Assembly (NCBI RefSeq): GCF_943181405.1
Contig: NZ_CALPBY010000004.1
Location: 415,880-479,879, forward strand
Direction of reading: 5' to 3'
Length of the DNA stretch: 64,000 nucleotides
DNA from: Cellulosimicrobium sp. Marseille-Q4280
GTDB taxonomy: Bacteria > Actinomycetota > Actinomycetes > Actinomycetales > Cellulomonadaceae
The translations under genes and the position numbers were made by a program. Below, in pieces: positions 29,445 to 60,358 of the stretch. Every line of letters begins with the position of its first letter. The stretch's first letter is position 1. The notes beneath the pieces were generated by a model. It saw only the letters and a program-made list of their open reading frames with translations, was not told the origin of the DNA and ran no database searches.

Positions 29445-29705
29445 TCAGCCGCAGGCCGGCGTCTCGTACGACGCGCTCGTGACCGTCTCGCGCTCGTCGG
29501 CGTCGTCTCTCGGGCGCACCGTGACGGTCGCGTCGCCCGCGGGCGCGTCGGCCGCGCGGACGGCGAACGACTGGTACGCGTTCTTCCCGGGCACGACGTG
29601 CGTGAACGTCCGCGAACCGAACGGCGTGGTGACCTCGACGTCGAGGGCCGTGTCGTCGTCGTTGACCACGCGCACGGCGACGTACGGCTTCCCGGCCAGG
29701 CAGCG
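29445..29705 (-). other. C-terminal RCLAGK...CG module, copy 1
   Basis: 86 codons plus stop. Starts RCLAGKPYVAVRVVNDDD, contains PGKNAYQSFAVRAAD, ends PACG. Shared with three other enzymes of the locus (copies at 33623, 47176, 60098); two invariant Cys near the ends suggest a disulfide. Confidence 0.85.
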
Positions 29706-32700
29706 CACCTCGGCCGTCGCCGTCACCGCGACCGGCGCCGGGAGGTCCGGGTCGCTCGCCCCGGGGGCCAGGACGCGCAGCGCGGCGAGCCCGGGGTCGC
29801 CGTCCGTCCACGACGTGCTGAGCGCGACGTACCGCGCGGTCCGGTCGACCGCGAGCGAGCCGCGGACGGTGGTGCCGTCGACGACCCCGCCGATCGTGCC
29901 CACGTCGGTGAACGTCAGCCCGTCGTCGCTCACCGAGACCACGGCGTCGGGTGCGCCGTCGGCGTCCCAGGTCGTGACGACGGACCCGATCTCGCGCGGT
30001 GCGCCGAGGTCGGTGACCATCCGCCCGTCCGCCCCGGGGACCCAGGCCGTGGCCGGGTCGCCGTCGACGGCCAGCGACGGCGACGTCATGCCCTCGGGCA
30101 GCACCGACGCCGGGAACGTGAGCGTGCTCAGCGCGTGGTCGGCGACCGGGTACGGCGTCGCGTCGGGGAAGCGCACGGTCGTGCCCGACGCCGAGACCTG
30201 GGTCTCGCGGGCCTCGCCCGTCTCGGCGTTGCGCACCTCGACCGACGCGGAACCGCCCTCGACCGAGAGACGCACCGTCCGTGCGTCGGGCACCGTCGCC
30301 GTCACGCCGCCCGTCACGTCGTCCGGTGCCCCGTGCTCGGCGGACAGCGTGGCCCGCGGTGCCAGGACGACCGCCGAGCCCGCGGGCACGGTGACCTCGA
30401 CGGACGACGTGTCCGCGCCGACGACCTGCGTGCCGGCGTAGAGCGCCACGTCGGAGCCCTCGTGGGGGACCGTGACGGTGGTCGTCACGTCCGACCCCGA
30501 GAGGTTGAACGCCGTCAGATACCCGTCGAGCGTGCTCACGAGCACGTCCTCGGCGTCGGCGGTGGCCTGCGGCGCCGCGGCCCGCGCGGCGGTCGCCGAC
30601 GCGTCGCCGGGCAGCATCTCGACGAGCCGCGGCCCGTCCGCGCCGTCCGCGAGGCGCACGACGTGGCGGGTGTCGGTCGCCCGCGAGACGCTGATCGGCG
30701 CCTCGGAGCCCCGCACGACGAAGCCCGCAGTGCCCTCGACGTTCAGCCAGTCCCCGGCGCTCTCGAGCACCTGGTCGCCGGTGTACCGGAAGCTCGCGGC
30801 GTCGTGCCAGGTCGTGCCGTCGAGCGAGGTCTGGACCCGGTACTCCTGGCCGGCCGCGGACTCCCAGCCGAGCTGGACCTGCGCGACGTCCACGGCCGCG
30901 CCGAGGTCGACCTGGACCCACGAGTCAGGACGCGTGCGGTCTTCCCGCGACACGGCCCACCGGGTCGTCGCGCTGCCGTCGGTGACGGCGCCCGCGCCGT
31001 TGCTGCCGTCGGCGCTCGACGCGGTCGCCGGACGGCCCGCCGCGACGTCCGTGCCCGCGGGCGAGAACGCACGCAGGTGGTAGAGCGAGTAGCCGTACTC
31101 GGGGTTGCCCCGCACGCCCTGCATGCGCACGTAGCGGGCCGAGACCGGGGCCGGCTCCGTCGCACCCTCGGGGACGAGGTCCACGGTGTCGAGCCGCGCG
31201 ACGTTCACGTCGGCGGGTGCCTTGCCGTAGGCGGTCGCCGTCGTCCAGGTGACGCCGTCGGTCGAGGTCTGGACGAGGTACCTGGCCCCGGCGCTCGCCT
31301 CCCACGCGAGCCGGACGCCGCCGACCGTGGTCTGCTCGCCGAGGTCGACCTGGATCCACGAGTCGGGTCGGGTGCGCTCGGCGACGGCGACGGCCCAGCG
31401 CGTGGTCGGGTTGCCGTCGGTCACGCGGGCGGCGGTGCGGCCGTTCGCGGAGTCCTGGCTGGACGCCGTGGCCGGCCGGCCGGCAGCGAGGTCGACGGGG
31501 GACGCGTCGTCGGCGCCGTAGGCGTGGAACGCGTGCATCGAGTAGCCGTACTGCGCGTTCCCCTGCTGCCCGAGCATCCGCACGTAGCGCGCCGTGACCG
31601 GCTCGAACGTGAGGTCGTCGACGCGCGCGGCCCGGGCGTCCGCGGGGTCGGCCGGCCGGGTCACGGGGAGCGACGCCGTCGTCTCGCCCTCGGCGGTCGT
31701 GTAGGTGCGCGAGCCGTCGAGACCGGAGTAGCCGTCCATGTCGAGGTTGCGCACGGACAGGCTCGCGTCGTCGGCCCCTGCGCCGGTCGAGGCGTAGAGC
31801 GCCGAGCCGGTCGGCAGGGTGACCTGGCCCGCGTAGCCGGCACCGATCCGGAACACGGACGACGTGCCCTCGAAGCCGTCGCGCGGCTCGGTGTACGTCG
31901 TGACGGCGCGGTCGTCGACCGTCGCGCCCGGCGTCGGGTAGAGGAACGGGGTCGAGCCCGAGACGTGGAAGAGCCACGAGTCGTGCCCGGGCACCCACGG
32001 GAACTTGAGGAAGCCCTTGCGGCTCCCGGCCGCGGCCCACGCGGCGCCGGTCTGCTGGACCGTGAGGCCCGGACCTGCGCCGAAGTCGCGGACGCCCGCG
32101 AGGCGGTCGAAGAGCTCGTCCTCCGGGGTGGGTACGACGGGGCCGTCCTCGTGCTCCGCCGCCTCGACGTGCAGGAGGTAGGAGATGGCGATCTCGGCGC
32201 GCGCCTCCGGCTCGTACTTCGGCTCGCCGGAGAACTTGGTGAGACGGTACTCGGGCGCGTAGCCCTGGTAGTCCTCGAGCGCGGCGGCGAGACCGGCCTC
32301 CGCGCGGGCGGCGTCGGGGTCGCGCAGAACCTGCCCGAGGAAGGCCATGGGCAGCACGTCGCGCCCGTAGAGGAACTCGCGGTCGTTCACCATGGGCATG
32401 AACGGCTCGCCCTGCTCGGACATGACGAGCTTGATCGCCTCCCACAGCTCCGCCGAGTTCGGCTGGCGCGTGAGGATCTCGGGCAGTGGCTCGTCGTGCA
32501 GGAGGAAGTGGATCGCGTTGCGCGCGCCCGACCGCCAGATGTCCGACTGGTAGTGCGGCCCGAACGAGCCGTGGTTCTCGACGAGGTACGTGTCGTAGAT
32601 CGTCTGCATCGTGTTGGAAGACACCGGCTTCCCGGCCACGACGGCCGGGTTGTTGCGGTCGGCGGTCGGCTGGCCGGCGGCGTTGCGCCCCCAGTCGCCG

Positions 32701-33419
32701 AGCTGCTCGTCCCAGCGGGCGGCGTCGGGGTCGTCGGGTGCCCACGCGAGACCCGGCGCGAGGGCCTGCGTGTAGACGCCGGCCTCCTCCTGCGCGGTGT
32801 CGCCGACGTGCTTGCCGGTCGGCCAGTCCGCGGTCCAGCTCCCCGACAACGGGTCCTTGCCGAAGTCCAGGTCGGCCGTGTAGCGCGACTGCTCGACGGC
32901 GATCGTCGTGAGGTTCGCCCGCGTCGCCTCGTCGAGCTCGTCCCACATCAGCGTCCCCGCGTCGAGGAAGTACGACTGGAACGTCGAGTCCCAGAACAGC
33001 TTCTTGCCCCACGTCCCCGCCGGGTCGACGAAGCGGTTCGTCGCCGCGTAGTGCTCGATCGTCGCGATCGTCTGCGCGCGCAGCTCGGCCTCGGGGACGC
33101 CGGCGATCTCGGCGTCGTACTCGCCGTGCGTGAGGAGCACCGCGTTGCCGAGGACGACGGCGAAGTTCATGTCCTTCGCCTGGTAGACGCCTGCGGCGTC
33201 GTCCCAGACGGTCTCGACCCAGTTGGTGTGCCGCAGCAGGGCCTCGTAGTAGTCGGCGGCGATCGGGTCGGGTGCGCCGTGGTCGACGGCGGCGTCGGCG
33301 GTGGTCTCGCCGTGCGCCGCGGACGCGGGCACCAGCAGGGTCCCGGTCAGGACGGCCGCGAGCAGCGCACCCGTCCGTCGGGCGCGCGGCGGGCGCGTGG
33401 TCGGTGTCGTCATCGACAT
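29445..33419 (-). CDS. secreted multi-domain carbohydrate-active protein, unassigned catalytic domain with F5/8C (CBM32) modules
   Basis: 1324 aa. Signal peptide (basic start, hydrophobic core LLAAVLTGTLLVPASAAHG). Residues about 45-430 are rich in aromatic and acidic residues (DYYEALLRHTNWVETVWDD, GTWGKKLFWDSTFQSYF) and probably an alpha/alpha toroid of unknown family, followed by a beta-rich domain to about 600. Then come F5/8 type C (CBM32-like) modules at about 640-790 and 800-930, a weaker one about 1090-1235, and the shared RCLAGK...CG module (last 86 residues). Likely hydrolase or lyase on glycan chains. ATG 33413 fits GAGAGG better than 33419. Promoter carries a LacI-type operator at 33499. 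Confidence 0.7.
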   Translation of the reverse strand: MSMTTPTTRPPRARRTGALLAAVLTGTLLVPASAAHGETTADAAVDHGAPDPIAADYYEALLRHTNWVETVWDDAAGVYQAKDMNFAVVLGNAVLLTHGEYDAEIAGVPEAELRAQTIATIEHYAATNRFVDPAGTWGKKLFWDSTFQSYFLDAGTLMWDELDEATRANLTTIAVEQSRYTADLDFGKDPLSGSWTADWPTGKHVGDTAQEEAGVYTQALAPGLAWAPDDPDAARWDEQLGDWGRNAAGQPTADRNNPAVVAGKPVSSNTMQTIYDTYLVENHGSFGPHYQSDIWRSGARNAIHFLLHDEPLPEILTRQPNSAELWEAIKLVMSEQGEPFMPMVNDREFLYGRDVLPMAFLGQVLRDPDAARAEAGLAAALEDYQGYAPEYRLTKFSGEPKYEPEARAEIAISYLLHVEAAEHEDGPVVPTPEDELFDRLAGVRDFGAGPGLTVQQTGAAWAAAGSRKGFLKFPWVPGHDSWLFHVSGSTPFLYPTPGATVDDRAVTTYTEPRDGFEGTSSVFRIGAGYAGQVTLPTGSALYASTGAGADDASLSVRNLDMDGYSGLDGSRTYTTAEGETTASLPVTRPADPADARAARVDDLTFEPVTARYVRMLGQQGNAQYGYSMHAFHAYGADDASPVDLAAGRPATASSQDSANGRTAARVTDGNPTTRWAVAVAERTRPDSWIQVDLGEQTTVGGVRLAWEASAGARYLVQTSTDGVTWTTATAYGKAPADVNVARLDTVDLVPEGATEPAPVSARYVRMQGVRGNPEYGYSLYHLRAFSPAGTDVAAGRPATASSADGSNGAGAVTDGSATTRWAVSREDRTRPDSWVQVDLGAAVDVAQVQLGWESAAGQEYRVQTSLDGTTWHDAASFRYTGDQVLESAGDWLNVEGTAGFVVRGSEAPISVSRATDTRHVVRLADGADGPRLVEMLPGDASATAARAAAPQATADAEDVLVSTLDGYLTAFNLSGSDVTTTVTVPHEGSDVALYAGTQVVGADTSSVEVTVPAGSAVVLAPRATLSAEHGAPDDVTGGVTATVPDARTVRLSVEGGSASVEVRNAETGEARETQVSASGTTVRFPDATPYPVADHALSTLTFPASVLPEGMTSPSLAVDGDPATAWVPGADGRMVTDLGAPREIGSVVTTWDADGAPDAVVSVSDDGLTFTDVGTIGGVVDGTTVRGSLAVDRTARYVALSTSWTDGDPGLAALRVLAPGASDPDLPAPVAVTATAEVRCLAGKPYVAVRVVNDDDTALDVEVTTPFGSRTFTHVVPGKNAYQSFAVRAADAPAGDATVTVRPRDDADERETVTSASYETPACG

Positions 33420-33498
33420 CCTCTCGTCGGTCCCGTCGTCGACGACGGGTAGGAGATCCGGGGGCGTGTCGCCGTTCGGGGCAACCGGCTCACTGAGG

Positions 33499-33517
33499 TG
33501 ACAGCGCTATCAGCATA
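33499..33517 (-). promoter_or_regulatory. LacI-type operator and -10 element of the unassigned glycosidase gene
   Basis: Palindrome TGACAGCGCTATCA (33499-33512; minus strand TGATAGCGCTGTCA) lies directly after a minus-strand -10 TATGCT (33512-33517), about 80 nt before the start codon. It matches the sites in front of the GH92 gene at 13 of 14 positions. Confidence 0.7.
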
Positions 33518-33542
33518 CGGTGCTCGGACAGCGGGCGGTACT

Positions 33543-33602
33543 GCCGAACCCGGGGTTGCGCGTCACCAGACCGCTCTGGTGCCGCGCAACCCCGGGTTCG
33601 GC
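33543..33602. repeat. GCCGAACCCGGGG hairpin repeat, copy E
   Basis: 60-bp palindrome, arms GCCGAACCCGGGGTTGCG/CGCAACCCCGGGTTCGGC and inner CACCAGA/TCTGGTG, 20 nt past the GH97 stop codon (minus strand). Confidence 0.9.
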
Positions 33603-33622
33603 GTCGGGAGTGCGTCGACGGC

Positions 33623-33889
33623 TCAGCCGCAGTCGACCGCCGGGACGTCGACCGCGACCTCGGCGGCGAGAGGCTCCCCGCCGACCGTGCCGCTCGCCAC
33701 GACCGTCGCGGTGGACGCGTCGACGGCGACGGACCGGGTCGCGAACGACTGGTAGGCGCTGGTCCCGGGTGCGACCGACGCGGACGTCCGCTCGCCGACG
33801 GCGGTCCGCAGGGTGAGCGCGAGGTCGACGGGCACGTCCTCGGCGTTGAGCGCCCGCACGGACACGTACGCCTTCCCCGCGAGGCAGCG
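33623..33889 (-). other. C-terminal RCLAGK...CG module, copy 2
   Basis: 88 codons plus stop in the GH97 gene: starts RCLAGKAYVSVRALN, contains TSAYQSFATR, ends VDCG. The most diverged of the four copies. Confidence 0.8.
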
Positions 33890-36800
33890 GGACTGCGCCT
33901 CGACGGTGACGTCGACCGCGTGCTCGGGCGTGCTCACGAGGACCCCGCGCGACGGCACGAGCCGCACGTGGTCGACGTTGACGTTGCCCGTGTCGCCTGC
34001 CGCGTACAGCAGGCCGACCGTGCCGGCGTCCTCGTCGAACGTGACGCGCGCCGACGGCGAGTAGTCCCAGCGCCGCCACCGGTCGGCGTCCTGGCCGAGG
34101 TTCGGGAACGCCTGCGGACCGACGTTCTCGCCGTCGACCGTGAGGGAGAGCTGACGGTCGAGCGGCGCGACGACCATGCCGTTCGCGTAGCGGAACGACA
34201 CGTCGTAGGCCGTCCCCGCGACGACGTCGGCGTCGACCTCGAACGCCGCTCCGAGCTTCGACAGCGTGCGCACGAACCCGGTACCCGTGTAGCCCGGGTG
34301 CTCCTTCGTCGTGATCGCTCCGCCCGACAGCGTGCCGTTCTCCGCCTCCAGGACGAGGTCGACGCGCTGCGCCTCGACCCTCGCGGAGAGCGCGGCGACC
34401 GCGTCGCCGTCCGCGGCGTCGAGGGCGTCCACCGCACGACCGAGCGTGCGGTCCACGGCGTCGTCGTCGCCCCGGACCGCTGCCCGGAGCGCTGCGGCGA
34501 GGGGCTCGCGGACCTGCGTCGCCGACGCGGGGTCGACCCCGCCGTCCGTCTCTGCCGCACTCAGGTCCGACAGGACCTCCGGCAGCCCGACGGCGTCCCC
34601 GAGCCACGGCGAGACCGTGTCCTCGAGCGCGGCGAGGGTCGCGGCGTCGACGTCGGACGGGCCGCGCGTGACGGCGACGGTGCGGATGCTCTGCGCCGCC
34701 TGCTCCGTCCCCGCGAGGTCTCCGTCCGCCGCCGCGGACACGAGCGCGTCCGCGCGGTCGCGCAGGACCCGAGCCGTCGCGGACGACAGCGCGCCGTCCG
34801 CCTGCGCGTCCTCGAGCAGCGCCGTCAGCGCGGCGCCGTCGGGGAACGGCAGGAGCGCGACGTCGATGGGCTCGCCGGCGTCCGCGTCGCCCGCCACGAG
34901 AGCGAGCGAGGAGGACGCGACGTACGGGACGTCGTCGGCGGCGAGCGTGTAGACGAGGTCGCGCGACCCGCCACCGGCGATGCGCGCGGCCGGGACGTCC
35001 GCGGGCTCGCCGTCGAGCACGAGCCGCACGTCCGCGACCGACGTGCCGGCGTTTTGCGCCTCGAGCGTCACCGTGACGGTGCGCGTCACCGGGTCGTACG
35101 ACGTCGCCGGTGACCCGACGGCCTCGACGCTCGGGCGCGCGTACGGCGCGAGGGTCGCGACGTCGTCGTCCGTCGCCGGGCGCAGCCGCACGGCCTGCCC
35201 GCCCGCACCGACGAGCGACGCGCTGAGGACGTCGTCCGCCGTGACGAGGGACCGGGTCACCTCGACCGCGGTCGGGTTCCCCTTCCAGCTCGCGTCCTGG
35301 GCGTCGGCCCAGACCTCAGCGACGTAGGTGACGTCGGCGTCCAGCATGTCGAGCGGGACGTCGAGCGTGCGGTCGTTCTCGTCCGTGACGACGCCGACGT
35401 ACCAGTCGTCGCCGCTGCGGCGTGCCGTCGTGACGTGGTCACCGATCTCGGCGTCGACGTGCGACTCGTCCCACGTGGCCGGCATGTCCTTCAGGTACTC
35501 GAACGCCTCGGGGTGCTTCGCGTAGTTCTCCGGGGTGTCGGCGAGCATCTGCAGCGGGCTGTAGAAGGTCGTGTACAGCGCGAGCTGGGTCGTGGTCGTC
35601 GTCTGCACGCGCGTGCCCAGGTTCGCCGGGTCCCACAGCACGTCGAGCACGCCCGGCGTGTAGTCCGCCGGGCCGCCGATCCAGCGGGTGAACGGCAGGA
35701 TCGTGGCCTGCTCCGGCGGGTTGCCGTTCGAGCCCATGTAGTTCTGCTGCTCCATGCCCGCGACGCCCTCGCCCGTCATCATGTTCGGGTAGGTGCGCTC
35801 CTTGCCGGTGGGCTTGATCGCCTCGTGCGCGTTGATCGAGATCTTGTGCCGTGCCGCGGCGTCGATGACCCGCTGGAAGTGCTTGACCGCCTCCTGGTCG
35901 AAGGTGCTGCGGTTCACGCCGCCGAGCTCGAACCGGGTCGCGTAGCCCGTCTTGATCGCGTGGACGCCCCACTCCTCGTACTGGCTGAAGATCTCCTCCA
36001 TGTGCGTGTCGTAGTAGTCGACGTAGCCGCGCGTCTCGTTGTGGGCGACGAACCCGACGCCCTTCGACTCCGCGTAGGCCAGCACCTCGTCGATGTCGAC
36101 GTCGGCCTGCGGGGTGACGAAGTCCTGGTTGGTCCACGACCCGCCCGCGTTGGTGTTCCATCCCTCGGCGAGCACGTACTTCGCCCCCGCGTCGGCCGCG
36201 AGGTCGACGTAGTCCTTGATGCGCTGGGTCGTCGCACCGTGCTTCGGGCCCGCGTTCCAGGTCGTGTGGCGGCGCTGCAGCTCCCACCACACGCCCGTGT
36301 ACGTGGCGGGATCGATCCAGTCCGTCGTGTCGTCGACGCCGTCGCCGTCGGAGTCGACGTCGCAGATCGCGCAGGGGTCGTTGAGGTTCTGGATCAGGTG
36401 CGACTCGGCGAGGTCGCCCGCCTCGCGGCCGATCTGCACGGTCCGCCACGGCGTCGCGAAGTCGTCCGCGGTCGTGTCCAGGACCGCCTTGGTCCCGTCC
36501 GGCAGGGAGTTCAGCTCGCTCACGAACGTGCCGGGCCTCCCGCTGACGCGCTTGAGGCTCATGCTCGCGTAGTCCGTCAGGTCCGCCTCGTGCACCGCGA
36601 GGAACAGGTCCCCGCCGCGCGAGAACGTGATCGGGGTCTGGGCGGTCGCGACGTCGCCGATCGGCGCGGTCCTGTAGTGCTTCTCGTCCGCACGCCAGTC
36701 CTTGCCGGCCTCGAGGTAGTACGCCGTGAGGTCGTCGGGGAGCGCGATCTCGGTCGACTCGGACAGGACGACGAACGGCCCGTCGAGCGCGGGCTGCTGC

Positions 36801-37345
36801 GGGAAGACGTAGCGGAACCCGACGCCGTCGTCGAAGACGCGCGCGACGACGTCGACCGCGAGACCGGACTCGTGGCGCGCGTGCACCGTGAGCTCGTTCG
36901 CGTGGTTGCGGACGGAGGACTGCGTCCCCCAGGCGGGGGTCCAGGTCTCGTCGACCTCGTCGCGCTCGACCGACTCGATCGTCATGCCGGTGGTGAGGTC
37001 GACGTCCGGGCCGCGCAGGGCGAGGCCGAGCCCGGACGCGCCGACGACGCTCGTCGAGCCGTCGCGCACGACGTCGTAGGTGAGGCGCCCGTCGACGACG
37101 CCGAGCGTGAGGTCGAGGCTGCCGTCGGGGGACACGACGTCGTGCCCGGTGATCTGCGGGACGGCGGCGGGGACCGCCGTCCGGGACCCGGATGGCAGCG
37201 CTGTCGGCGCCGCGAGGGCGGGCGTCGCGGCGGCGACGGGGGCCAGCAGGGCGAGGGCGAGACCGACGCCCGTGAGTCGTCGGGCGGTGTGCGAGCGGGA
37301 CGCGCGAGGCCCGGGGGACGGGGGTCGAGAGGCGGTGAGATGCAT
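33623..37345 (-). CDS. secreted GH97 glycoside hydrolase (inverting, alpha-glucosidase-like) with C-terminal CBM35-like module
   Basis: 1240 aa. Signal peptide (LALALLAPVAAATPALA). GH97 super-sandwich (about 65-310) and barrel (about 320-610) with the inverting set of the SusB type: Glu437 (HNETRG), Glu508 (NAHEAIKPTG), Glu526 and Glu532 (GEGVAGME). The retaining-type Asp nucleophile is replaced by Gly467 (IKTGYAT). An extra Ca-binding-like loop DVDSDGDGVDD is inserted after NDPCAIC. Then a C-terminal beta domain, a NEW3-like domain, a helical Asp/Ala-rich stretch, a CBM35-like module (about 990-1135) and the RCLAGK...CG module. Inferred: exo-acting on alpha-glucosides or alpha-galactosides. 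Lies downstream of the MalEFG-type importer genes. Confidence 0.88.
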   Translation of the reverse strand: MHLTASRPPSPGPRASRSHTARRLTGVGLALALLAPVAAATPALAAPTALPSGSRTAVPAAVPQITGHDVVSPDGSLDLTLGVVDGRLTYDVVRDGSTSVVGASGLGLALRGPDVDLTTGMTIESVERDEVDETWTPAWGTQSSVRNHANELTVHARHESGLAVDVVARVFDDGVGFRYVFPQQPALDGPFVVLSESTEIALPDDLTAYYLEAGKDWRADEKHYRTAPIGDVATAQTPITFSRGGDLFLAVHEADLTDYASMSLKRVSGRPGTFVSELNSLPDGTKAVLDTTADDFATPWRTVQIGREAGDLAESHLIQNLNDPCAICDVDSDGDGVDDTTDWIDPATYTGVWWELQRRHTTWNAGPKHGATTQRIKDYVDLAADAGAKYVLAEGWNTNAGGSWTNQDFVTPQADVDIDEVLAYAESKGVGFVAHNETRGYVDYYDTHMEEIFSQYEEWGVHAIKTGYATRFELGGVNRSTFDQEAVKHFQRVIDAAARHKISINAHEAIKPTGKERTYPNMMTGEGVAGMEQQNYMGSNGNPPEQATILPFTRWIGGPADYTPGVLDVLWDPANLGTRVQTTTTTQLALYTTFYSPLQMLADTPENYAKHPEAFEYLKDMPATWDESHVDAEIGDHVTTARRSGDDWYVGVVTDENDRTLDVPLDMLDADVTYVAEVWADAQDASWKGNPTAVEVTRSLVTADDVLSASLVGAGGQAVRLRPATDDDVATLAPYARPSVEAVGSPATSYDPVTRTVTVTLEAQNAGTSVADVRLVLDGEPADVPAARIAGGGSRDLVYTLAADDVPYVASSSLALVAGDADAGEPIDVALLPFPDGAALTALLEDAQADGALSSATARVLRDRADALVSAAADGDLAGTEQAAQSIRTVAVTRGPSDVDAATLAALEDTVSPWLGDAVGLPEVLSDLSAAETDGGVDPASATQVREPLAAALRAAVRGDDDAVDRTLGRAVDALDAADGDAVAALSARVEAQRVDLVLEAENGTLSGGAITTKEHPGYTGTGFVRTLSKLGAAFEVDADVVAGTAYDVSFRYANGMVVAPLDRQLSLTVDGENVGPQAFPNLGQDADRWRRWDYSPSARVTFDEDAGTVGLLYAAGDTGNVNVDHVRLVPSRGVLVSTPEHAVDVTVEAQSRCLAGKAYVSVRALNAEDVPVDLALTLRTAVGERTSASVAPGTSAYQSFATRSVAVDASTATVVASGTVGGEPLAAEVAVDVPAVDCG
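37193..37206. promoter_or_regulatory. possible intragenic LacI-type site in the GH97 signal-peptide region
   Basis: TGGCAGCGCTGTCG, 12 of 14 matches to TGACAGCGCTGTCA, about 140 bp inside the GH97 coding region. It could act as a roadblock or auxiliary operator, or be chance in GC-rich coding sequence. Confidence 0.3.
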
Positions 37346-37525: not shown

Positions 37526-37561
37526 GACCGCTCTGCCGTGCGGGGAGAGGGTGCGCGGTCG

Positions 37562-38463
<902 letters not shown>

Positions 38464-38464
<1 letters not shown>

Positions 38465-39363
38465 CACTTCTCCTGACGGTTGGTGCGGATCAGGTACGGC
38501 ACGATGACGACGGCGACGATGACCAGGAGGATCGAGCCGACGGCCGCGGCGCTCGCGTAGTCGAAGCTCGACTTGAACACGTACATGTCGACGGCGGGCA
38601 CCTTGGTCTGGTAGTTCGCCGGCTTGGAGATCGACATGATGAGGTCGAACGCCTTGAGCGACATGTGGCCGATGATGATGAGCGCCGAGAGCGCGATGGG
38701 CGACAGCTGCGGGAACAGCACGTGGCGGTACAGCTTCCACTCGCTCGCGCCGTCCATGCGCGCGGCCTCGCGCAGCTCGTCCGGGATACCGCGGAACCCG
38801 GCGAGGAACAGGGCCATGACGTACCCGGAGAGCTGCCAGATCGCCGGGATGGCGATCGCGGTGATGCCCCAGGAGACGTTGTTCCACCAGTTGTTCTGCA
38901 GGAAGTCCAGGCCGACCATCTGGAACAGGCGGTTGAGCCCGCTCGCCGACTCGTCCTGGTTCGAGTTCAGCAGCCAGCGCCACACCACGCCGGACGCCAC
39001 GAACGACACGGCCATGGGGAACAGGTAGACCGAGCGGAAGATCCCCTCGCCCCGCAGGGGCTTGTCGAGGAGCCAGGCCCACAGGAATCCCATGAGCATC
39101 GTGCCGACGAGGAACACCACCGTGTACAGCACGAGGTTCTTCAGCGAGTGCTGGAACGCCTCGCTGCCCAGCAGGTCGGTGTAGTTCTGGAACCACACGA
39201 CGACCGACGGCTGCTGGCCGGTGGCCTGTGCGGCGGTGTGGTTGTCGGTGATCGAGGTCTGGAAGTTCGCGCCGATGAGCCCGTAGACGAAGACGCCCAC
39301 GAGGATCAGCGAGGGGGCGAGCATGAGCAGCGCGGGGCCTGCTCGCCGCAGGGACTTGAGCAT
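38464..39363 (-). CDS. sugar ABC importer permease, MalF type
   Basis: 299 aa, about six to seven TM segments beginning ALLMLAPSLILVGVFVYGLI. EAA loop PDELREAARMDGASEWKLYR. Pairs with the MalG-type protein to form the channel. Separated from the binding-protein gene by a strong intercistronic hairpin, which would give more binding protein than permease. A glucose/mannose-type relative is likely from its resemblance to GtsB-like permeases, but the substrate is inferred only from context. Confidence 0.9.
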
Positions 39364-39414
39364 TGTTGGACTTCCCGGGTCGGGGACTGTGCGTCAGGCG
39401 GTCGGCACGGGCCG

Positions 39415-39452
39415 GCCGCGCGTCGTCGGGGCGGTGCCCGACGACGCGCGGC
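39415..39452 (-). terminator. intercistronic hairpin between binding protein and permease genes
   Basis: 16-bp perfect stem GCCGCGCGTCGTCGGG/CCCGACGACGCGCGGC with a 6-nt loop, in the 149-bp gap. No U-tract: probably a partial terminator or mRNA 3'-stabiliser. Confidence 0.75.
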
Positions 39453-39512
39453 GGCCCGGGCGTGCGGGTGCGGGCCCTGCGCGTCGCCCGCGCAGGTCCC
39501 GCACCCCGGAGG

Positions 39513-40805
39513 TCAGCCCTGCGCGGCGGCGGCGAGCTCGGTCTGGTAGGTCGCGAGGTCGGACCCACCGGACGTGAACTTGCTCGTCGCGTCGGAGACC
39601 GCGTTGAGCGTCGCGACGGGCGCGGCGGCACCGTGCGCGAGCGAGGACACGATGGTGTCCTGGCCGAACGACTCGATCGCCGTCTGCTGGTACTCGGAGA
39701 ACTCCGAGGGGTCGGCGTCGGTGCGGGCTGGGATGGAGCCCTTGGCCTTGTTGAACGCGACCTGGCCCTCGAGGGAGCCGACGGTCTCGAGCCACGCCTT
39801 GGCGCCGTCGGGGTGCGGCGCGCCCACCGGGAGGGTGAACGAGTCGGCGAGGAAGTCGAACACGCCGTCGGTGCCCGGCACGGGGAACGCGATGAAGTCG
39901 GTGCCGAGGGCCTTGTCCTGCTCCTCGAACGCCGCGACCGCCCAGTCGCCCATGACGTTGAACGCGGCGTTGCCGTCGATCACCATCTGGGTCGCCTCGG
40001 GCCAGTCGAGCCCGTCACGGTCGGTGTTGGTGTAGCTCATGAGCGTCTCGAACTTCTCGAGCGCGCCGGTGACCTCGGCACCCTCCCAGTCGGTCGAGCC
40101 GTCCCACAGACCGGTGTACGACTCGGCGCCGAGCTCGGCGAGGAGCACGGTCTCGAGCAGGTGCACCTGGGTCCACGTCGTCGCGACGGACAGCGGCGTG
40201 ACGCCGGCAGCCTTCAGCGTCTCGAGGTCCGCCATCCAGGCGTCGAGGTCCGCGTACTCGGCGGCGGGGTCGATCCCGTTGTCCTCGAGCACGGTCGGGT
40301 TGGCCCACACGACGTTGGCGCGGTGCACGTTCGACGGGATCGAGTAGATCGCGCCGTCCTCGGCCGTGACGCGGTCGACCAGGTCGGCCGGGAACACGTC
40401 GGTGAGGCCGAACTCGTCGTACAGGTCGGAGACGTCCTCGATCTGCGCGGCGTCGATGTAGTCCTGGAGCTCCGCGCCGGCGTGCGCCTGGAACGTGTCC
40501 GGCGGGTCCTGCGCCTGGAGGCGGGACTGGAGGAGGTCCTTCGCGGCGGAGCCTGCGCCGCCGGCGACCGCGCCGTTGATGAACTCGGTGTCGGGGTGCT
40601 GCTCGTCGAACACGCCGACGAGGGCGTCGAGGCCCGCCTTCTCGGAGCCGGCCGCCCACCAGGTGAAGACCTCCACCTCGTCGCCGCCGCCGCTACCGCC
40701 TTCGGTGTTGTCGTCACCGGAACCGCCGCCGCTGCACGCGGCGAGTGCCAGACCCACGAGGGCGGCACCGGCCACCGTCGCGCTCGTCCTGCGAGTGAGT
40801 CGCAT
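39513..40805 (-). CDS. extracellular sugar-binding lipoprotein of an ABC importer
   Basis: 430 aa. Signal peptide with lipobox LALAACSGGG (Cys24). Solute-binding protein family 1 features: VEVFTWWAAGSEKAGLDALV near the start and the C-terminal block AFNVMGDWAVAAFEEQD / GAPHPDGAKAWLETVGS. Similar architecture to glucose/mannose-binding proteins. Captures sugars released by the neighbouring secreted glycosidases and hands them to the MalF/G-type permeases. Expressed from the promoter at 40910-40938, which carries a candidate ROK-type operator. An AGGGAT ribosome site precedes the ATG. Confidence 0.9.
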   Translation of the reverse strand: MRLTRRTSATVAGAALVGLALAACSGGGSGDDNTEGGSGGGDEVEVFTWWAAGSEKAGLDALVGVFDEQHPDTEFINGAVAGGAGSAAKDLLQSRLQAQDPPDTFQAHAGAELQDYIDAAQIEDVSDLYDEFGLTDVFPADLVDRVTAEDGAIYSIPSNVHRANVVWANPTVLEDNGIDPAAEYADLDAWMADLETLKAAGVTPLSVATTWTQVHLLETVLLAELGAESYTGLWDGSTDWEGAEVTGALEKFETLMSYTNTDRDGLDWPEATQMVIDGNAAFNVMGDWAVAAFEEQDKALGTDFIAFPVPGTDGVFDFLADSFTLPVGAPHPDGAKAWLETVGSLEGQVAFNKAKGSIPARTDADPSEFSEYQQTAIESFGQDTIVSSLAHGAAAPVATLNAVSDATSKFTSGGSDLATYQTELAAAAQG

Positions 40806-51838: not shown

Positions 51839-51841
51839 ACG

Positions 51842-52939: not shown

Positions 52940-52961
52940 CGGTCCCGTCCGGAACATCCGC

Positions 52962-52967
52962 TACCCT
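52962..52967 (+). promoter_or_regulatory. -10 element for leaderless lipoprotein gene
   Basis: TACCCT ends 7 nt before the ATG at 52975; no Shine-Dalgarno sequence. Confidence 0.55.
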
Positions 52968-52974
52968 CCGGGCC

Positions 52975-53571
52975 ATGACGCGCCCACGACGCTCCGGCCC
53001 GCAGCCCGCCGCCCCGTCGCGGGGACACCGGGGTCGACGGACGGTCGCCGTGGCGGCAGGAGCCGTCGTCCTGGGACTTGCCCTCGGAGCGTGCTCGGGT
53101 GACGACGCGGCCGAGGCGCCGACACCGGTCGTCGTCGGCGCGACCGAGTACGAGCCGATCCTCGAGACGCGGCTGCCCGTCCCCGGCTCGGCCGAGGACG
53201 AGGTGACCGTCGGGCTCGTCTCGCTCGTCGCCGAGGGCTCCACGGTCGAGCTGCGGGTCGTTCTCACCCCGCACTTCGCGGAGGACGACCCGGACCGGCC
53301 CGAGGAGCACTCGGTGTACGACATGCTCGGCGGCCACCACGACCCGTGGCTGCTCGACGTCGGCTCGCTCACGCGGTACGACGTCGTCTCCGCCCCGGGC
53401 AAGGACATGGCCACGGACGTCGTGTACGCGCAGACGGCCAACGGCCACCCCCTGCTCTACCAGGCGTGGTTCCCGCGCCCCGAGGGCGACCCCGCGACCG
53501 TCGACGTGCGGCTGCACGACGCGTGGCCGGCCTTCGAGGACGTGCCGGTGACCTGGGAGGCGACCGAGTGA
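52975..53571 (+). CDS. uncharacterised lipoprotein with DVPV-type C-terminal domain
   Basis: 198 aa. Lipobox LALGACSGDD after a basic start. The folded part (about 60-198) has VELRVVLTPHF, YDVVSAPGKDM, LLYQAWFPRPEGDP and WPAFEDVPV. The same order of blocks recurs in the C-terminal domain of the protein encoded next, so the two are paralogous over ~120 residues. No family recognised. Overlaps the next gene by 4 bp (GTGA). Confidence 0.75.
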   Translation: MTRPRRSGPQPAAPSRGHRGRRTVAVAAGAVVLGLALGACSGDDAAEAPTPVVVGATEYEPILETRLPVPGSAEDEVTVGLVSLVAEGSTVELRVVLTPHFAEDDPDRPEEHSVYDMLGGHHDPWLLDVGSLTRYDVVSAPGKDMATDVVYAQTANGHPLLYQAWFPRPEGDPATVDVRLHDAWPAFEDVPVTWEATE

Positions 53572-54767: not shown

Positions 54768-54818
54768 GCGCGGGAGGACGACGGCACCGGGACGACGTCG
54801 TGGGCGGGCGCGCTCCCG

Positions 54819-54847
54819 TTGACACCGGTGCCACGGGCGCATAGGTT
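54819..54847 (+). promoter_or_regulatory. sigma-70-type promoter of the GH92 gene
   Basis: TTGACA (54819-54824), exact 17-bp spacer, TAGGTT (54842-54847). Strong match. Confidence 0.8.
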
Positions 54848-54858
54848 CGCCCTGCCCC

Positions 54859-54917
54859 TGACAGCGCTACCCCCTGCGCGCTGTCGGGGGCACCCGCTCA
54901 GGCTGACAGCGCTGTCG
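54859..54917. promoter_or_regulatory. two LacI-type operators downstream of the GH92 promoter
   Basis: TGACAGCGCTACCC (54859-54872) and TGACAGCGCTGTCG (54904-54917), 45 bp apart, plus a GCGCTGTCGG half-site between them. Both lie between the predicted transcription start and the AAGGAG ribosome site, the usual position for repression. Confidence 0.75.
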
Positions 54918-54937
54918 ATCGAAGGAGATCGCTCGTC

Positions 54938-57900
54938 ATGACCCCACTCCACCGCGCACGCGCCGCGCACCGACCCTCAGGCAGGTCGAGATCCCTCGGG
55001 ATCGCGATCGCCGCAGCCCTGGCCGTCCCGCTCGCCGTCCCGCTGGGCGCCGCGACGGCCCTGCCCGCCGCGGCCGCCGAGCCCGGCGACTTCGCGTCGT
55101 CGTTCGAGCAGGCCGACCCCGCGCCGCTCGCCACCACCGTGGCGGAGCGCGACGGCGCCCCCTGGCAGACCAACGTCGGCTCCTTCACGAGCGGCCTGCC
55201 GGGCAGCGTGCTCGGGAAGATCAAGACGGTCACGGCCAGCGCGCAGAACCTGCCCAACGAGGGCGCCGCGAACCTCGCCGACGGCAGCTCCGGCACCAAG
55301 TGGCTCGCGTTCGCCTCGACCGGCTGGGTCACGTACGAGTTCACCGAGCCTGTCGCGTTCGGCGCCTACGCGCTGACGTCGGCCGACGACGCGGCGGGCC
55401 GCGACCCGAAGACGTGGACCATCGAGGGCTCGAACGACGGCTCGACGTGGACGCCCCTCGACCAGCGCGCCGAGGAGGACTTCCCACAGCGTCAGCAGCA
55501 GCGGCTCTTCGAGCTCGACGCGCCGACGGCGGCGTACACGCACCTGCGCCTGAACGTCACCGCGAACTCGGGCGACCCGATCATCCAGCTCGCCGGGTGG
55601 GACCTCTCGGCCGACATGTCCGCCGGTCCGAGCGCCGCGCCCATGACGACGAAGGTCGGCACCGGGCCGCGGGTCAACTTCACGAACAAGGCGGGCGTCG
55701 GGTTCTCCGGCCTCGCCTCGCTCCGCTACGACGGCTCGCACCTCGCGGACGGCCCGGCGAACGCGACGAACGTCCTCTACGACGACGTCGACGTCGAGGT
55801 CGGCGAGGACACGCGCCTCAGCTACACGATCTTCCCCGAGCTCCTCGACGACCTGCAGTACCCGTCGACGTACGCCGCGGTCGACCTGCTCTTCACCGAC
55901 GGCACGTACCTGTCCGACCTCGAGGCGCGCGACGCGCACGAGACCGTCGCGACGGCGCGCGCGCAGGGCGAGGGCAAGATCCTCTACGCCGACCAGTGGA
56001 ACTCCGTGCGCGTCGACGTCGGCGACGTGGCCGAGGGCAAGACCGTCGACCAGGTGCTCCTCGGCTACGACAACCCGGGCGGCGCGGCCGGCACGCGGTT
56101 CGCGGGCTGGCTCGACGACGTCGCGCTCACGGCGCAGCCGGAGACGGTCGACGGCTCGAGCCTCGCCAACTACGTGGACACGCGCCGCGGCACGCTGTCG
56201 AGCGGCAGCTTCTCGCGCGGCAACAACATCCCCGCGGCCGCGGTCCCGAACGGCTTCAACTTCTGGGTGCCGATGACCAACGCGTCGTCGCAGAGCTGGC
56301 TGTACGAGTACCAGAAGGCCAACAACGCGAACAACAAGCCGGTCCTGCAGGGCCTCGGCATCTCGCACGAGCCGAGCCCGTGGATGGGCGACCGCAACCA
56401 GCTCGCGTTCCTGCCCGCCGTCGGGCCCGCGACGGGTGCGCCGAACGGCACGCTCGCGCAGCGCGGCCTCGAGTTCGACCACGCCGACGAGACGGCGCGG
56501 CCGGACTACTACGGCGTGACGTTCACCAACGACAGCGCCCTCGAGGTGGCCCCGGCGGACCACGCCGCGGTGCTGCGCTTCACCTACCCGGGCGACGTCG
56601 GGCACGTGCTCGTCGACAAGGTCGACGGCACCTCCAAGCTGTCCTTCGACCAGGCCACGGGCACGCTCTCCGGCTGGGTCGAGAACGGCTCGGGTCTGTC
56701 CGTGGGCCGCACGCGCATGTTCGTCGCCGGTACCTTCGACCGTAGTCCGACGGCGGTCGGGAATGCCGCGGGGAACCGCGCGGACGCGCGCTACGCCACG
56801 TTCGACACGTCGTCCGACGACACCGTCGAGCTGCGCGTCGCGACGTCGTTCATCGGCCTCGACCAGGCCCGCAAGAACTTGGCGCAGGAGGTCGAGGGGA
56901 AGTCGTTCACCGAGGTCAAGGCCGCGGCGACAAACGCGTGGAACGACCGCCTGGAGGTCGTCGAGGTCGAGGGCGCGAGCGAGGACCAGCTCGTCACGCT
57001 GTACTCGAACCTCTACCGCCTCAACCTGTACCCGAACTCGCAGTTCGAGAACACGGGCACGCCCGAGGCCCCGGTCCACAAGTACGCGAGCCCGGTGTCG
57101 CCGACGTCGGGCAGCGCGACCGACACCACGACGAACGCCAAGGTCGTGGACGGCAAGATCTACGTCAACAACGGGTTCTGGGACACGTACCGCACGGCCT
57201 GGCCGGCGTACTCGTTCCTCTACCCCGAGCTCGCGGGCGAGCTGATCGACGGCTTCGTCGAGCAGTACCGCGACGGCGGCTGGATCGCCCGCTGGTCCTC
57301 GCCCGGCTACGCCGACCTCATGACGGGTACGAGCTCGGACGTCGCGTTCGCCGACGCCTACCTCAAGGGCTCGCTGCCGACCGACGTGGCGCTCGAGGCG
57401 TACGACGCCGCGGTGAAGAACGCGTCCGTCTCCCCGCCGAACAACGCCGTGGGCCGCAAGGGCCTGCAGACGTCGCCGTTCCTCGGGTTCACGCCGGAGT
57501 CCACGCACGAGTCCGTGTCGTGGGGCCTGGAGGGCCTGATCAACGACTTCGGCATCGGCAACATGGCCGCGGCCCTCGCCGAGGACCCGGCCACGCCGGA
57601 CGAGCGTCGCGAGACGCTGCGCGAGGAGTCCGCCTACTACCTCGAGCGCGCCACGCACTACGTCGAGCTGTTCGACCCCGAGGTCGACTTCTTCGTCCCG
57701 CGCCACGCGGACGGCGAGTTCGCCGTGGACCCGGAGACGTACGACCCCGAGGCCTGGGGCGGCGGCTACACCGAGACGAGCGGCTGGAACTTCGCGTTCC
57801 ACGCGCCGCAGGACCCGCAGGGTCTCGCCAACCTCTACGGCGGCAAGGAAGGGCTCGAGGCCAAGCTCGACGAGTTCTTCTCCACGCCGGAGCAGGGCGC

Positions 57901-60358
57901 GGGCAACGGCGGCATCCACGAGCAGCGCGAGGCGCGCGACGTCCGCATGGGCATGTGGGGCATGAGCAACCAGGTGTCCCACCACATCCCGTGGCTCTAC
58001 GACGCCGCGGGCGCTCCGCACAAGACGCAGGAGAAGGTCCGCGAGGTCACGCGCCGCCTCTTCGTGGGCAGCGAGATCGGCCAGGGCTACCCGGGTGACG
58101 AGGACAACGGCGAGATGTCGTCGTGGTGGATCTTCGCCTCCCTCGGCTTCTACCCGCTGCAGGTCGGCTCCGACGAGTACGCGGTCGGCTCGCCCCTGTT
58201 CGACAAGGCCACCGTGCACCTGCCCGGCGGCGACCTCGTGGTCAACGCCGAGAACAACTCGGTGGACAACGTCTACGTGCAGTCGCTCGCCGTCGACGGC
58301 GAGACCCGCACCTCGACCTCGCTCTCTCAGGCTGACCTCTCGGGCGGCGCGACCCTCGACTTCGTCATGGGTCCGGAGCCGTCCGCGTGGGGCACGGGCG
58401 AGGACGACGCGCCGCCGTCGCTCACCGAGGGCGACGAGGCGCCGGAGCCGGTGAAGGACGCGACGGCGTCGGGCCTCGGCACGACGACCGTCACCGACGG
58501 TGACGCCGCGACGAGCGCCGCGGCGCTCGTGGACGACACGTCGGCGACCCGCACCACGTTCGCCGGTGCCACCCCGACCGTCACGTGGTCGGGCAACGGC
58601 ATCCGGCCGACCGTCGGCACGTACACGCTGACCTCCGGCGCGAGCGGGACGGCGTCGCCGTCCGCATGGGCCCTCGAGGGCTCCGACGACGGCGAGACGT
58701 GGACGACGCTCGACGAGCGTTCCGGCGAGCAGTTCCGCTGGGCGCTGCAGACGCGGCCGTTCACGGTCGCCGAGCCGGCGGCGTACGCGCACTACCGGGT
58801 CGTCGTCACGGCGTCGGCCGGGGAGGGCGCGCTCTCGCTCGCCGAGGTCGAGCTGCTCGCCGACCCGTCCGAGTCCGGGGCCACCGAGCTCACGCTCAAC
58901 GCCGCGGCGGACCGCGACGCCGTCACGGGTCGCGAGGTCACGGGGACGTTCGCCACGCTCACGGGCGTCGACGACGCCGAGGGCCTGGACGTCTCGGTGA
59001 CGTTCGGCGACGGCTCCGAGCCCGCCGCTGCCACGCTGGTGCAGGGCGCGTTCGGGTCGTGGTCGGTGCAGGCCGCGCACACGTGGACCGCTCCGGGCGT
59101 CTACCCGGTCACGGTCACGGTGACGCCGGACGGCGGGGAGCCGGTCACGGCGACCTCGTCCGTGTCGGTCTCGCTGCTGCGCGAGGGCTCGCTCCTCGGG
59201 GCCTTCGACAACGTCTGCATCGGCGACCCGGGCACGACCGTCGGCTCGTGCGACGGCCAGGGCGTGTTCTTCGACCGCACGCAGCTCGCGGCCAAGGGCT
59301 TCGTCCAGGGTGAGCGCGGGTCCGTCCCCGGCACCGACCTGCAGTTCGACGTGCCCGCGGTCCCCGCGGGCGAGCCGGACAACGCGACCGGTGACGGCCA
59401 GACGATCGAGCTCGACGTCCCCGCGGACGCGGAGCAGCTCTCGGTGATCGGGACGGGCACGGAGAAGAACCAGCAGGCCTCGGGCACGCTGACGTTCGAC
59501 GACGGCTCCACCCAGGCCATCGGCCTGAGCTTCGGCGACTGGTCGGGCGCGGCCCGCAACCCCGTGTTCGGGAACATCCCGGTGGCCGTGACGGACAGCC
59601 GCCTGCGCGGCGGCAGCCCGCAGACCGGTACGCCCGCCGCGTTCTTCGCGACGGCGCCGATCACGCTCCCCGAGGGCAAGCGGCCCGTGAGCATCACGCT
59701 CCCGGACCAGCCGGGCGTGCTCGAGCGCGACGGCCGCATCCACGTGGTCGCGTTCGCGCACGACGGGACCTTCGTGGAGCAGCCCGCGCTCGAGGTGACG
59801 GCCGCGGACGGCGTGAGCGTCGCCGTCGGGCAGGAGACCGACACCGTCCTGGCGACCGTTACCGGCGGGCGCGAGGGCGCGGAGCTCCGCGCCGCGATCA
59901 CGTGGGGCGACGGGTCCGACGTCGCCGCAGGGGCCGTCGCCGACGGTCAGGTCACGGGCGCGCACGCCTACGCCGAGGCCGGGACGTACACGGCGTACGT
60001 CGTGGTCGACGACGGGTGGACGAGCAGCGTGGTCGAGGTCCCCGTGACCGTGACCGAGGCGGCCCCGACGCTCGACGTCGAGGTCACCGCGAGCACGCGG
60101 TGCCTCGCGGGCAAGGCCTACGTCGCCGTCCGCGCCGTCAACGGCGAGGACGCCCCGCTCGCGGTCCGGCTCGTCACGCCGTTCGGGACCAAGGCGTTCG
60201 CCGCGGTGCAGCCGGGTCAGTCGGCGTACCAGTCGTTCGCCGTCCGCGCGACGTCCGTGGACGCCGGGACCGTGACGGTCGAGGCCGTCGGAGGCTCGGG
60301 CGACGAGGAGGTGACCGCGAGCATCGAGGCCGGCTTCGACGCGATCAGCTGCGGCTAG
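54938..60358 (+). CDS. secreted multi-domain GH92 exo-alpha-mannosidase
   Basis: 1806 aa. Signal peptide, then F5/8C-like domain (about 95-230), a beta region, GH92 catalytic module (about 405-1140) with the blocks YVDTRRGTLSSGSFSRGNN, HESVSWGLEGLINDFGIGNM and GDEDNGEMSSWW; Asp1054 and Asp1056 correspond to the catalytic-base pair. Family enzymes are Ca-dependent, inverting exo-alpha-mannosidases. C-terminal to it: a second F5/8C-like domain, PKD-like, NPCBM-like and PKD-like domains and the RCLAGK...CG module. Released mannose could feed the isomerase encoded next. Ribosome site AAGGAG; LacI-type operators upstream. Confidence 0.93.
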   Translation: MTPLHRARAAHRPSGRSRSLGIAIAAALAVPLAVPLGAATALPAAAAEPGDFASSFEQADPAPLATTVAERDGAPWQTNVGSFTSGLPGSVLGKIKTVTASAQNLPNEGAANLADGSSGTKWLAFASTGWVTYEFTEPVAFGAYALTSADDAAGRDPKTWTIEGSNDGSTWTPLDQRAEEDFPQRQQQRLFELDAPTAAYTHLRLNVTANSGDPIIQLAGWDLSADMSAGPSAAPMTTKVGTGPRVNFTNKAGVGFSGLASLRYDGSHLADGPANATNVLYDDVDVEVGEDTRLSYTIFPELLDDLQYPSTYAAVDLLFTDGTYLSDLEARDAHETVATARAQGEGKILYADQWNSVRVDVGDVAEGKTVDQVLLGYDNPGGAAGTRFAGWLDDVALTAQPETVDGSSLANYVDTRRGTLSSGSFSRGNNIPAAAVPNGFNFWVPMTNASSQSWLYEYQKANNANNKPVLQGLGISHEPSPWMGDRNQLAFLPAVGPATGAPNGTLAQRGLEFDHADETARPDYYGVTFTNDSALEVAPADHAAVLRFTYPGDVGHVLVDKVDGTSKLSFDQATGTLSGWVENGSGLSVGRTRMFVAGTFDRSPTAVGNAAGNRADARYATFDTSSDDTVELRVATSFIGLDQARKNLAQEVEGKSFTEVKAAATNAWNDRLEVVEVEGASEDQLVTLYSNLYRLNLYPNSQFENTGTPEAPVHKYASPVSPTSGSATDTTTNAKVVDGKIYVNNGFWDTYRTAWPAYSFLYPELAGELIDGFVEQYRDGGWIARWSSPGYADLMTGTSSDVAFADAYLKGSLPTDVALEAYDAAVKNASVSPPNNAVGRKGLQTSPFLGFTPESTHESVSWGLEGLINDFGIGNMAAALAEDPATPDERRETLREESAYYLERATHYVELFDPEVDFFVPRHADGEFAVDPETYDPEAWGGGYTETSGWNFAFHAPQDPQGLANLYGGKEGLEAKLDEFFSTPEQGAGNGGIHEQREARDVRMGMWGMSNQVSHHIPWLYDAAGAPHKTQEKVREVTRRLFVGSEIGQGYPGDEDNGEMSSWWIFASLGFYPLQVGSDEYAVGSPLFDKATVHLPGGDLVVNAENNSVDNVYVQSLAVDGETRTSTSLSQADLSGGATLDFVMGPEPSAWGTGEDDAPPSLTEGDEAPEPVKDATASGLGTTTVTDGDAATSAAALVDDTSATRTTFAGATPTVTWSGNGIRPTVGTYTLTSGASGTASPSAWALEGSDDGETWTTLDERSGEQFRWALQTRPFTVAEPAAYAHYRVVVTASAGEGALSLAEVELLADPSESGATELTLNAAADRDAVTGREVTGTFATLTGVDDAEGLDVSVTFGDGSEPAAATLVQGAFGSWSVQAAHTWTAPGVYPVTVTVTPDGGEPVTATSSVSVSLLREGSLLGAFDNVCIGDPGTTVGSCDGQGVFFDRTQLAAKGFVQGERGSVPGTDLQFDVPAVPAGEPDNATGDGQTIELDVPADAEQLSVIGTGTEKNQQASGTLTFDDGSTQAIGLSFGDWSGAARNPVFGNIPVAVTDSRLRGGSPQTGTPAAFFATAPITLPEGKRPVSITLPDQPGVLERDGRIHVVAFAHDGTFVEQPALEVTAADGVSVAVGQETDTVLATVTGGREGAELRAAITWGDGSDVAAGAVADGQVTGAHAYAEAGTYTAYVVVDDGWTSSVVEVPVTVTEAAPTLDVEVTASTRCLAGKAYVAVRAVNGEDAPLAVRLVTPFGTKAFAAVQPGQSAYQSFAVRATSVDAGTVTVEAVGGSGDEEVTASIEAGFDAISCG
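60098..60358 (+). other. C-terminal RCLAGK...CG module, copy 4
   Basis: 86 codons plus stop of the GH92 gene: RCLAGKAYVAVRAVNGED, QSAYQSFAVRATS, ends ISCG. Confidence 0.85.

Follow-up and report, generated by a model that had tools for sequence, protein, structure and literature searches.

Four secreted proteins and their common C-terminal module

The stretch analyzed here, referred to below as the window, comprises 64,000 nucleotides of Cellulosimicrobium sp. Marseille-Q4280 (contig NZ_CALPBY010000004.1, positions 415,880 to 479,879), and encodes four secreted proteins, two on the minus and two on the plus strand, which all end in one common C-terminal module of 86-88 residues. On the minus strand, the first gene (29445-33419) encodes a protein of 1324 amino acids (aa; P0007) in which Pfam recognizes several F5/8 type C domains only, the enzyme remaining unassigned, and its module lies at 29445-29747 (residues 1225-1324, stop included; core 29445-29705). 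The second (33623-37345) encodes a glycoside hydrolase of family 97 (GH97; P0008, 1240 aa), with the module at 33623-33931 (from residue 1139, stop included; core 33623-33889). On the plus strand, the third gene (41266-47436) encodes a LacZ-type GH2 protein with an NPCBM domain (P0009, 2056 aa), its module spanning 47134-47436 (from residue 1957, stop included; core 47176-47436), and the fourth (54938-60358) encodes a GH92 protein with F5/8 type C and PKD domains (P0010, 1806 aa), whose module at 60056-60358 (residues 1707-1806, stop included; core 60098-60358) was used for structure prediction. In order along the window the modules measure 86, 88, 86 and 86 residues, and each begins with RCLAGK, contains AYQSFA and terminates in Cys-Gly directly before the stop codon. 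Module coordinates include 14 residues upstream of this core, which gives the 100-residue numbering used below, with the cysteines at positions 16 and 99. An earlier note on this DNA, made from the letters alone, had reported the same ending on four different enzymes; the alignment of the four modules confirms it, with 28 invariant columns.

Copies, spread and fold of the module

A profile built from these four rows matched at least 49 places in the genome of the same strain, 45 of them at E <= 8.6e-16; given these matches, the sharing observed in the window is not due to chance. The count is a lower bound, as 150 of the 169 first-look candidates were scored. All 45 clear copies reach a stop codon, 78-89 residues after the module start; one is a bare frame of 97 aa (L158), and the start of another host is cut by a contig end (L152). 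Beyond the clear copies were found a distant C-terminal copy on an asparaginase (L160, E 2e-6), a copy broken off mid-domain in a reading frame without a normal tail (L159, contig C8, 46906), and two weak profile matches inside a single sigma-factor fusion protein (L161).

According to Pfam, glycoside hydrolases make up 21 of the 45 hosts and other enzymes 17, with 7 proteins left unassigned. The glycoside hydrolases fall into families GH2, 10, 13, 30, 43, 51, 59, 76, 92, 97 and 127, some of these numbers being our presumed equivalents of Pfam names, and include L127, whose GH43 match is below the Pfam cut-off. The other enzymes carry ThuA and/or GSDH (six), 3-keto-disaccharide hydrolase (three), AP_endonuc_2 (one), subtilase (one), M28 peptidase (one), phosphatase/nucleotidase (four) or Abhydrolase_10 domains (one). 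A home-made signal-peptide test was positive in 188 of 208 open reading frames with an intact 5' end. The earlier description of the hosts as secreted carbohydrate-active enzymes is thus retained for secretion and abandoned for the confinement to such enzymes, since 17 of the 45 hosts are enzymes of other kinds.

The module is actinobacterial, as anticipated, by the matches in a contig database and in sampled genomes. In the former, 276 of 291 pattern matches encode a relative of the module, and the titles of the 80 loci retained name Cellulosimicrobium (72), Oerskovia flava (4) and Sphaerisporangium cinnabarinum (4). A profile of the 45 paralogues found matches in 85 of 200 genomes drawn from the window's family at E <= 1e-3 and, at E <= 1e-5, in 52 of 396 genomes of the order, 34 of 394 of the class and 4 of 296 of the phylum; the draws overlap one another, and all four module-bearing genomes of the phylum draw fall in the window's order. 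In the family search, each of the 17 genomes of the window's genus (g1) has at least 25 copies. Some other genomes have at least 10 and many have 1-7, and more than half of the genomes in each draw gave no match.

Position at the very end of the host is the rule rather than the law. The window and the loci fetched up to that stage (without L001-L038) contain 246 distinct matches, of which 235 are terminal. The exceptions, 11 in all, are two with seven or eight extra residues (L198, L182), two tandem pairs near the end (L170, L171), a module followed by two CBM5/12 modules (L176), three matches in L161 and the broken copy L159. The strictly C-terminal location expected in the earlier note holds for most copies and fails for these. 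In 234 complete terminal copies (one row cut at a locus edge was dropped), both cysteines are present in 221, neither in 13 and a single one in none; the cysteine-free copies belong by eye to at least six host groups, one of which contributes five. As the two cysteines are kept or lost together, the terminal disulfide proposed earlier is well supported. The chain ends at the cysteine or within two residues of it in 221 of the 234 copies, and neither an LPXTG-type sorting signal (L-P/A-x-T-G, hydrophobic stretch, basic tail) nor a membrane segment was found after the module in any of them.

The AlphaFold model of the GH92-host module (pLDDT 95.7, pTM 0.86) is an all-beta, seven-strand, immunoglobulin-like (Ig-like) sandwich of two sheets, in agreement with the beta-sandwich suggested in the earlier note; its first strand begins about seven residues upstream of RCLAGK. 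The same note had recognized no named domain, and library searches returned none. The four modules have no match over cut-off in Pfam or NCBIfam. For 89 diverse members, no Pfam family shown matches more than 11 at E <= 0.1 (best single value 0.00067, in one member) and no NCBIfam family more than five (best 0.00051, in one member). Searches of the PDB returned two designed Ig proteins (best E 0.0076) and chance rows by sequence, and generic Ig-like domains by fold. Literature searches yielded no paper naming the domain, and none containing the string RCLAGK. The most frequent Pfam resemblance is to DUF4232 (PF14016; 11 of 89 members at E <= 0.1, best 0.0044), with scores, where printed, of 16.4, 14.6, 14.5 and 14.3 bits, below the gathering cut-off of 27 bits; it may only reflect the Ig-like fold. 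No carbohydrate-binding module (CBM) family was matched, the best shown being CBM_35 (6 of 89 members, best E 0.013).

Known tags of comparable use differ from the module in build. The dockerin of cellulosomes is a helical pair of EF-hands, whereas the module is all-beta with seven strands; the two would be alike in their way of working, as tags that assemble many enzymes on a common partner. No Dockerin_1 (PF00404) match was reported for the modules or their hosts (for L159, in the first 1200 aa), and the family is absent among the 25 of 36 Pfam families shown for the 89 members. The C-terminal domains of the type IX secretion system (T9SS) of Bacteroidota (TIGR04183 and kin) offer a closer parallel: they are Ig-like, about 80-100 aa long and occur dozens of times per genome. 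Published abstracts describe them as a conserved ending common to many secreted proteins and recognized by a common machinery, which releases the cargo or anchors it at the surface. This likeness is one of kind, not of descent. The module is closed by a disulfide, and its hosts belong to Gram-positive bacteria such as Cellulosimicrobium, devoid of an outer membrane. NCBIfam models of T9SS sorting domains matched none of the four modules and are not among the 21 families listed for the 89 members, one of which touches a T9SS DNase model (E 0.086). Nor does any library match link the module to SLH domains, LPXTG-type anchors or CBM5/12 tails. By sequence, the module thus belongs to none of the dockerin, T9SS, LPXTG or known CBM families, and may still work like one of them. 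The domain itself is new; the kind of job, a docking or retention tag, is already known.

Several neighboring observations deserve mention. The putative catalytic part of the first host in the window (residues 50-590, approximately) matches neither a Pfam nor an NCBIfam family over cut-off, nor any PDB chain by sequence, and may represent a new enzyme family. Sugar ATP-binding cassette transporter-like genes (38464-40805) and regulator-like genes (47549, 51842), read by eye from translations, lie among the four host genes, and the region 29445-60358 looks like a polysaccharide utilization locus. Ten hosts elsewhere in the genome contain ThuA, GSDH, AP_endonuc_2 or 3-keto-disaccharide hydrolase domains (L119, L131, L133, L134, L137, L139, L141, L142, L147 and L148), which suggests that the enzymes of an extracellular oxidative (3-keto) sugar pathway carry the module as their tag. 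In L161 (contig C1, about 279.8-285.1 kb), a protein of 1764 aa, sigma-70 regions occur along with a putative zinc finger (zf-HC2), a hydrophobic segment and several module-like Ig domains in a row, of which one shares the cysteine pair of the module; the protein may be a sigma factor joined to an extracellular sensor. Finally, the loci titled Sphaerisporangium cinnabarinum ATCC 31213 (L054, L078, L088 and L118) carry modules closely like those of Cellulosimicrobium; our guess is that the record may be mislabeled or contaminated.

A putative conserved face and an exchangeable C-terminal slot

The variability of the module's surface and the endings that replace it in orthologous enzymes bear on its role. 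When inward and outward residues are assigned by alternation along the strands, the outward residues of sheet A-B-E are less variable among the paralogues of the genome than the outward residues of the second sheet (mean entropy 1.19 versus 2.21 bits; 11 versus 14 positions, p = 0.004). The best conserved outward residues of this sheet are Arg15, Tyr22, Ala24, Arg26 and Tyr58. A second test without the three strand-A positions gave p = 0.0002; it was selected after looking and is not relied on.

At positions 22 and 58, the copies of this genome and those of genus g23 have almost no residues in common (overlap 0.02 and 0.00). In the g1 set, which takes in all contig-database loci including the Oerskovia and Sphaerisporangium titles, 149 of 154 modules have aromatic residues at both positions; none of the 25 g23 modules has one at either. 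Three enzymes, a 5'-nucleotidase, a subtilase and a pullulanase, bear the module in the window's genome (G000), in G011 and in G023. In that order of enzymes, residues 22/58 read Y/Y, Y/Y and Y/Y in G000, H/Y, H/Y and F/F in G011, and Q/A, Q/S and T/Q in G023. In these nine modules, a small number, the two residues thus track the genome rather than the host enzyme. Mean identity over the whole module is 0.45 for the same genome and different hosts, 0.47 for the same host in different genomes, and 0.40 when both differ. Because overall identity does not follow the genome, wholesale gene conversion is not the reason for the pattern; in our reading it reflects a face adapted to a single partner in each genome. 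A tree of the modules (234 rows, 100 columns, 103 of 231 inner branches open) served solely to show that lineage labels cluster.

The same three enzymes reveal what stands in the place of the module in relatives. For the 5'-nucleotidase (30 loci from 40 genomes with a match), four loci end in the module (G000, G011, G023 and G043, each a genome with at least 25 copies), four in LPXTG-type signals, two in SLH domains, four in CBM5/12-like repeats and one in a hydrophobic tail without motif. Pfam, run on nine of these tails, retrieved SLH in two of two, CBM5/12 in two of two, the Ig-like Big_3_5 in one and, for four examined for Gram_pos_anchor, one match over cut-off, two below and none in the last; the remaining tails were classed by eye. 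The subtilase (17 loci) has the module in the same four genomes and an LPXTG-type end in one, the rest being different or, in six cases, running off the locus. The pullulanase (30 loci from 31 genomes) likewise has the module in these four genomes, LPXTG-type ends in two (G262 and G019) and an Ig-like domain end in seven loci of family f19, the others being different. The module therefore occupies, in some relatives, the slot of the surface or wall devices of Gram-positive bacteria, and many of these enzymes have no such device at all.

Two further types of ending were noticed in this comparison. In family f19, the unrelated 5'-nucleotidase and pullulanase end in a similar Ig-like domain of about 95 aa (L226-L228, L232, L233, L265-L267, L269-L271 and L273; identified as Big_3_5 in the single tail scanned; the chains finish in PILVW, PVLAW or the like), a case of a shared C-terminal domain parallel to that of the module. 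Short tryptophan-rich tails on several orthologous enzymes of related genomes (L216, L230, L231, L259, L262, L263 and L268) are possibly another unnamed retention tail.

Docking, retention and a possible extracellular assembly

We favor, with some reserve, a docking (retention) role for this C-terminal domain, which would bind a single extracellular partner common to the module proteins of a genome. After ordinary export, the module would fold into its seven-strand sandwich, closed by a disulfide linking the end of strand A with the last residues. The binding face would be the outer side of sheet A-B-E, formed by Arg15, Tyr22, Ala24, Arg26, Tyr58 and Ser60, probably with Arg64 just behind strand E. 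We infer that this outward face binds the common partner, and that dozens of different enzymes would as a result be held in one place, on the surface of the cell or within multienzyme particles derived from it. Among the three functions put forward in the earlier note, a retention or interaction tag fits the data best; a secretion signal is not needed, as the hosts bear ordinary N-terminal signals, and a CBM directed at the substrate of the host enzyme is a poorer fit.

Several results weigh against the docking model. No binding partner of the module was found. The face was assigned from strand alternation rather than from coordinates, Asp36 is likewise conserved and points outward on the other sheet, and in 48 modules of family f19, taken from several genomes, the face of sheet A-B-E is variable. 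The g23 set consists of two genomes (G023 and G043) and includes orthologous pairs, and shared ancestry could account for much of the lineage signature. Enzymes can also do without the tail: other or plain ends occur at 15 of the 30 5'-nucleotidase loci, five f19 genomes with modules (G547, G379, G250, G484 and G531) encode this enzyme without one, and 11 of 26 module-free pullulanase loci stop straight after the catalytic part. Finally, LPXTG proteins have not given way to the module. A replacement was considered and set aside, as within the family it amounts to a weak trend (1.6 versus 3.5 LPXTG matches per genome in 10 module-rich versus 17 module-free genomes, p = 0.09), and G262 combines 27 LPXTG matches with at least 12 modules.

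The strongest competitor, though an improbable one in our estimation, holds that the module is a CBM that targets the enzymes to an insoluble substrate such as the plant or fungal wall, and not to the producer. The aromatic residues of the g1 set, on a supposedly flat sheet face, speak for such a function, and CBM5/12-like repeats both take the same slot in the four 5'-nucleotidase orthologues and follow the module in L176. Yet the hosts have unrelated substrates, among them proteins, phosphate esters and nucleotides; 24 of the 45 already possess another glycan-binding-type domain over the Pfam cut-off (CBM, F5/8 type C, laminin-G-like, PA14, NPCBM or ricin); and the aromatic pair is missing throughout the modules of the two g23 genomes despite their many copies.

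Somewhat less probable still is homotypic binding, in which modules would bind one another and enzymes would cluster through their tails, no separate receptor being required. Such binding would account for the face residues common to the paralogues of a genome and switching together, and equally for the failure to find a receptor; it does not by itself explain why SLH domains and LPXTG-type anchors take the same slot. It is rather unlikely that the module is a mere structural cap without a partner, spread by shuffling and shielding long secreted proteins from proteases: a disulfide-closed Ig fold at the very end of the chain and the many module-free orthologues suit a cap, which nevertheless would need neither a conserved outer face nor lineage-specific residues common to paralogues.

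That a single-cohesin protein (contig C2, 585099) is the receptor is very improbable, and this candidate was set aside. Cohesin was over cut-off in 10 of 12 module-bearing genomes of the first search (6 of 6 of the window's genus and four relatives) and in none of 63 module-free genomes, two of which have matches below it; the protein ends by eye in an LAxTG-type anchor, although Pfam, run on four such proteins, reported the cohesin and not the anchor. Against this association, none of 17 further module-bearing genomes has cohesin, and a ready-made partner lies next to it. A homologous amidase gene occurs in 10 of 10 fetched cohesin stretches, directly adjacent in the four listed. N-terminal matches to Dockerin_1, a domain reported on none of the module hosts scanned, were obtained for three of four amidases examined, one over cut-off (E 1.1e-5) and two below. 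We take the two genes (L303:6480-7259 and L303:7256-9169, contig C2 at about 585-587.7 kb; homologous genes in L304-L312) to be a separate cohesin-dockerin pair, possibly a one-enzyme mini-cellulosome in an actinobacterium.

For the docking model, the particle of a congener is of particular relevance. Cellulosimicrobium cellulans F16 secretes Xyl_I, a "hemicellulosome" of about 17.9 MDa and 20-65 nm in which 27 proteins were identified, among them glucanases, xylanases, mannases, peptidases and laccases (PMC4562250). Cohesin and dockerin were reported absent from the F16 genome, which has the accession ATNL00000000 and 4,102 protein-coding genes, in contrast to the single-cohesin protein present in the window's genus; subunit assembly was called ambiguous, and no assembly domain was named (PMC4562250). 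The key catalytic subunit, M768_06655, has the architecture ThuA-GSDH-PKD-CBM6-PKD. It also occurs in two free forms, present in the culture supernatant and obtained by proteinase K treatment, respectively; both are truncated by about 500 residues at the C terminus, whereas the complex contains the full-length protein (PMC4562250). In domain order and estimated mass it agrees with the module host L141 of the window's genome, a comparison of one gene with the published architecture of one subunit. The mature mass of L141 is estimated at 172.9 kDa (start guessed), and the published value of 118.3 kDa corresponds to a chain ending near residue 1240 of 1755, so that the part lost would be the module together with GH43_C2/DUF1349-type sequence. 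No orthologue of L141 was found in two sets of fetched C. cellulans stretches, which do contain 28 module-bearing frames and, from two additional genomes, orthologues (L329 and L330, the latter the same gene as the module host L069) of the related host L134. The loss of some 500 residues in the free forms fits an assembly role, without isolating the module. Two points temper it: the lost region holds other domains besides the module, and one of the free forms was made with proteinase K (PMC4562250).

As a more tentative extension of the docking model, it is possible that the module assembles the F16 particle itself, as the tag of a cellulosome-like machine built without cohesin and dockerin, which would constitute an extracellular enzyme-assembly system of a third kind, operating in Cellulosimicrobium and, with modified docking faces, in several further lineages of actinobacteria. 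If true, this would explain how an 18-MDa particle holds its subunits and why C-terminal loss frees one of them, and would answer the stated open question of how the subunits assemble (PMC4562250); enzyme display and designer complexes would also gain a new docking pair. A tag carried by about 45 secreted proteins of one genome, and not found in Pfam or NCBIfam, would in turn allow annotators to spot a whole co-localized secretome.

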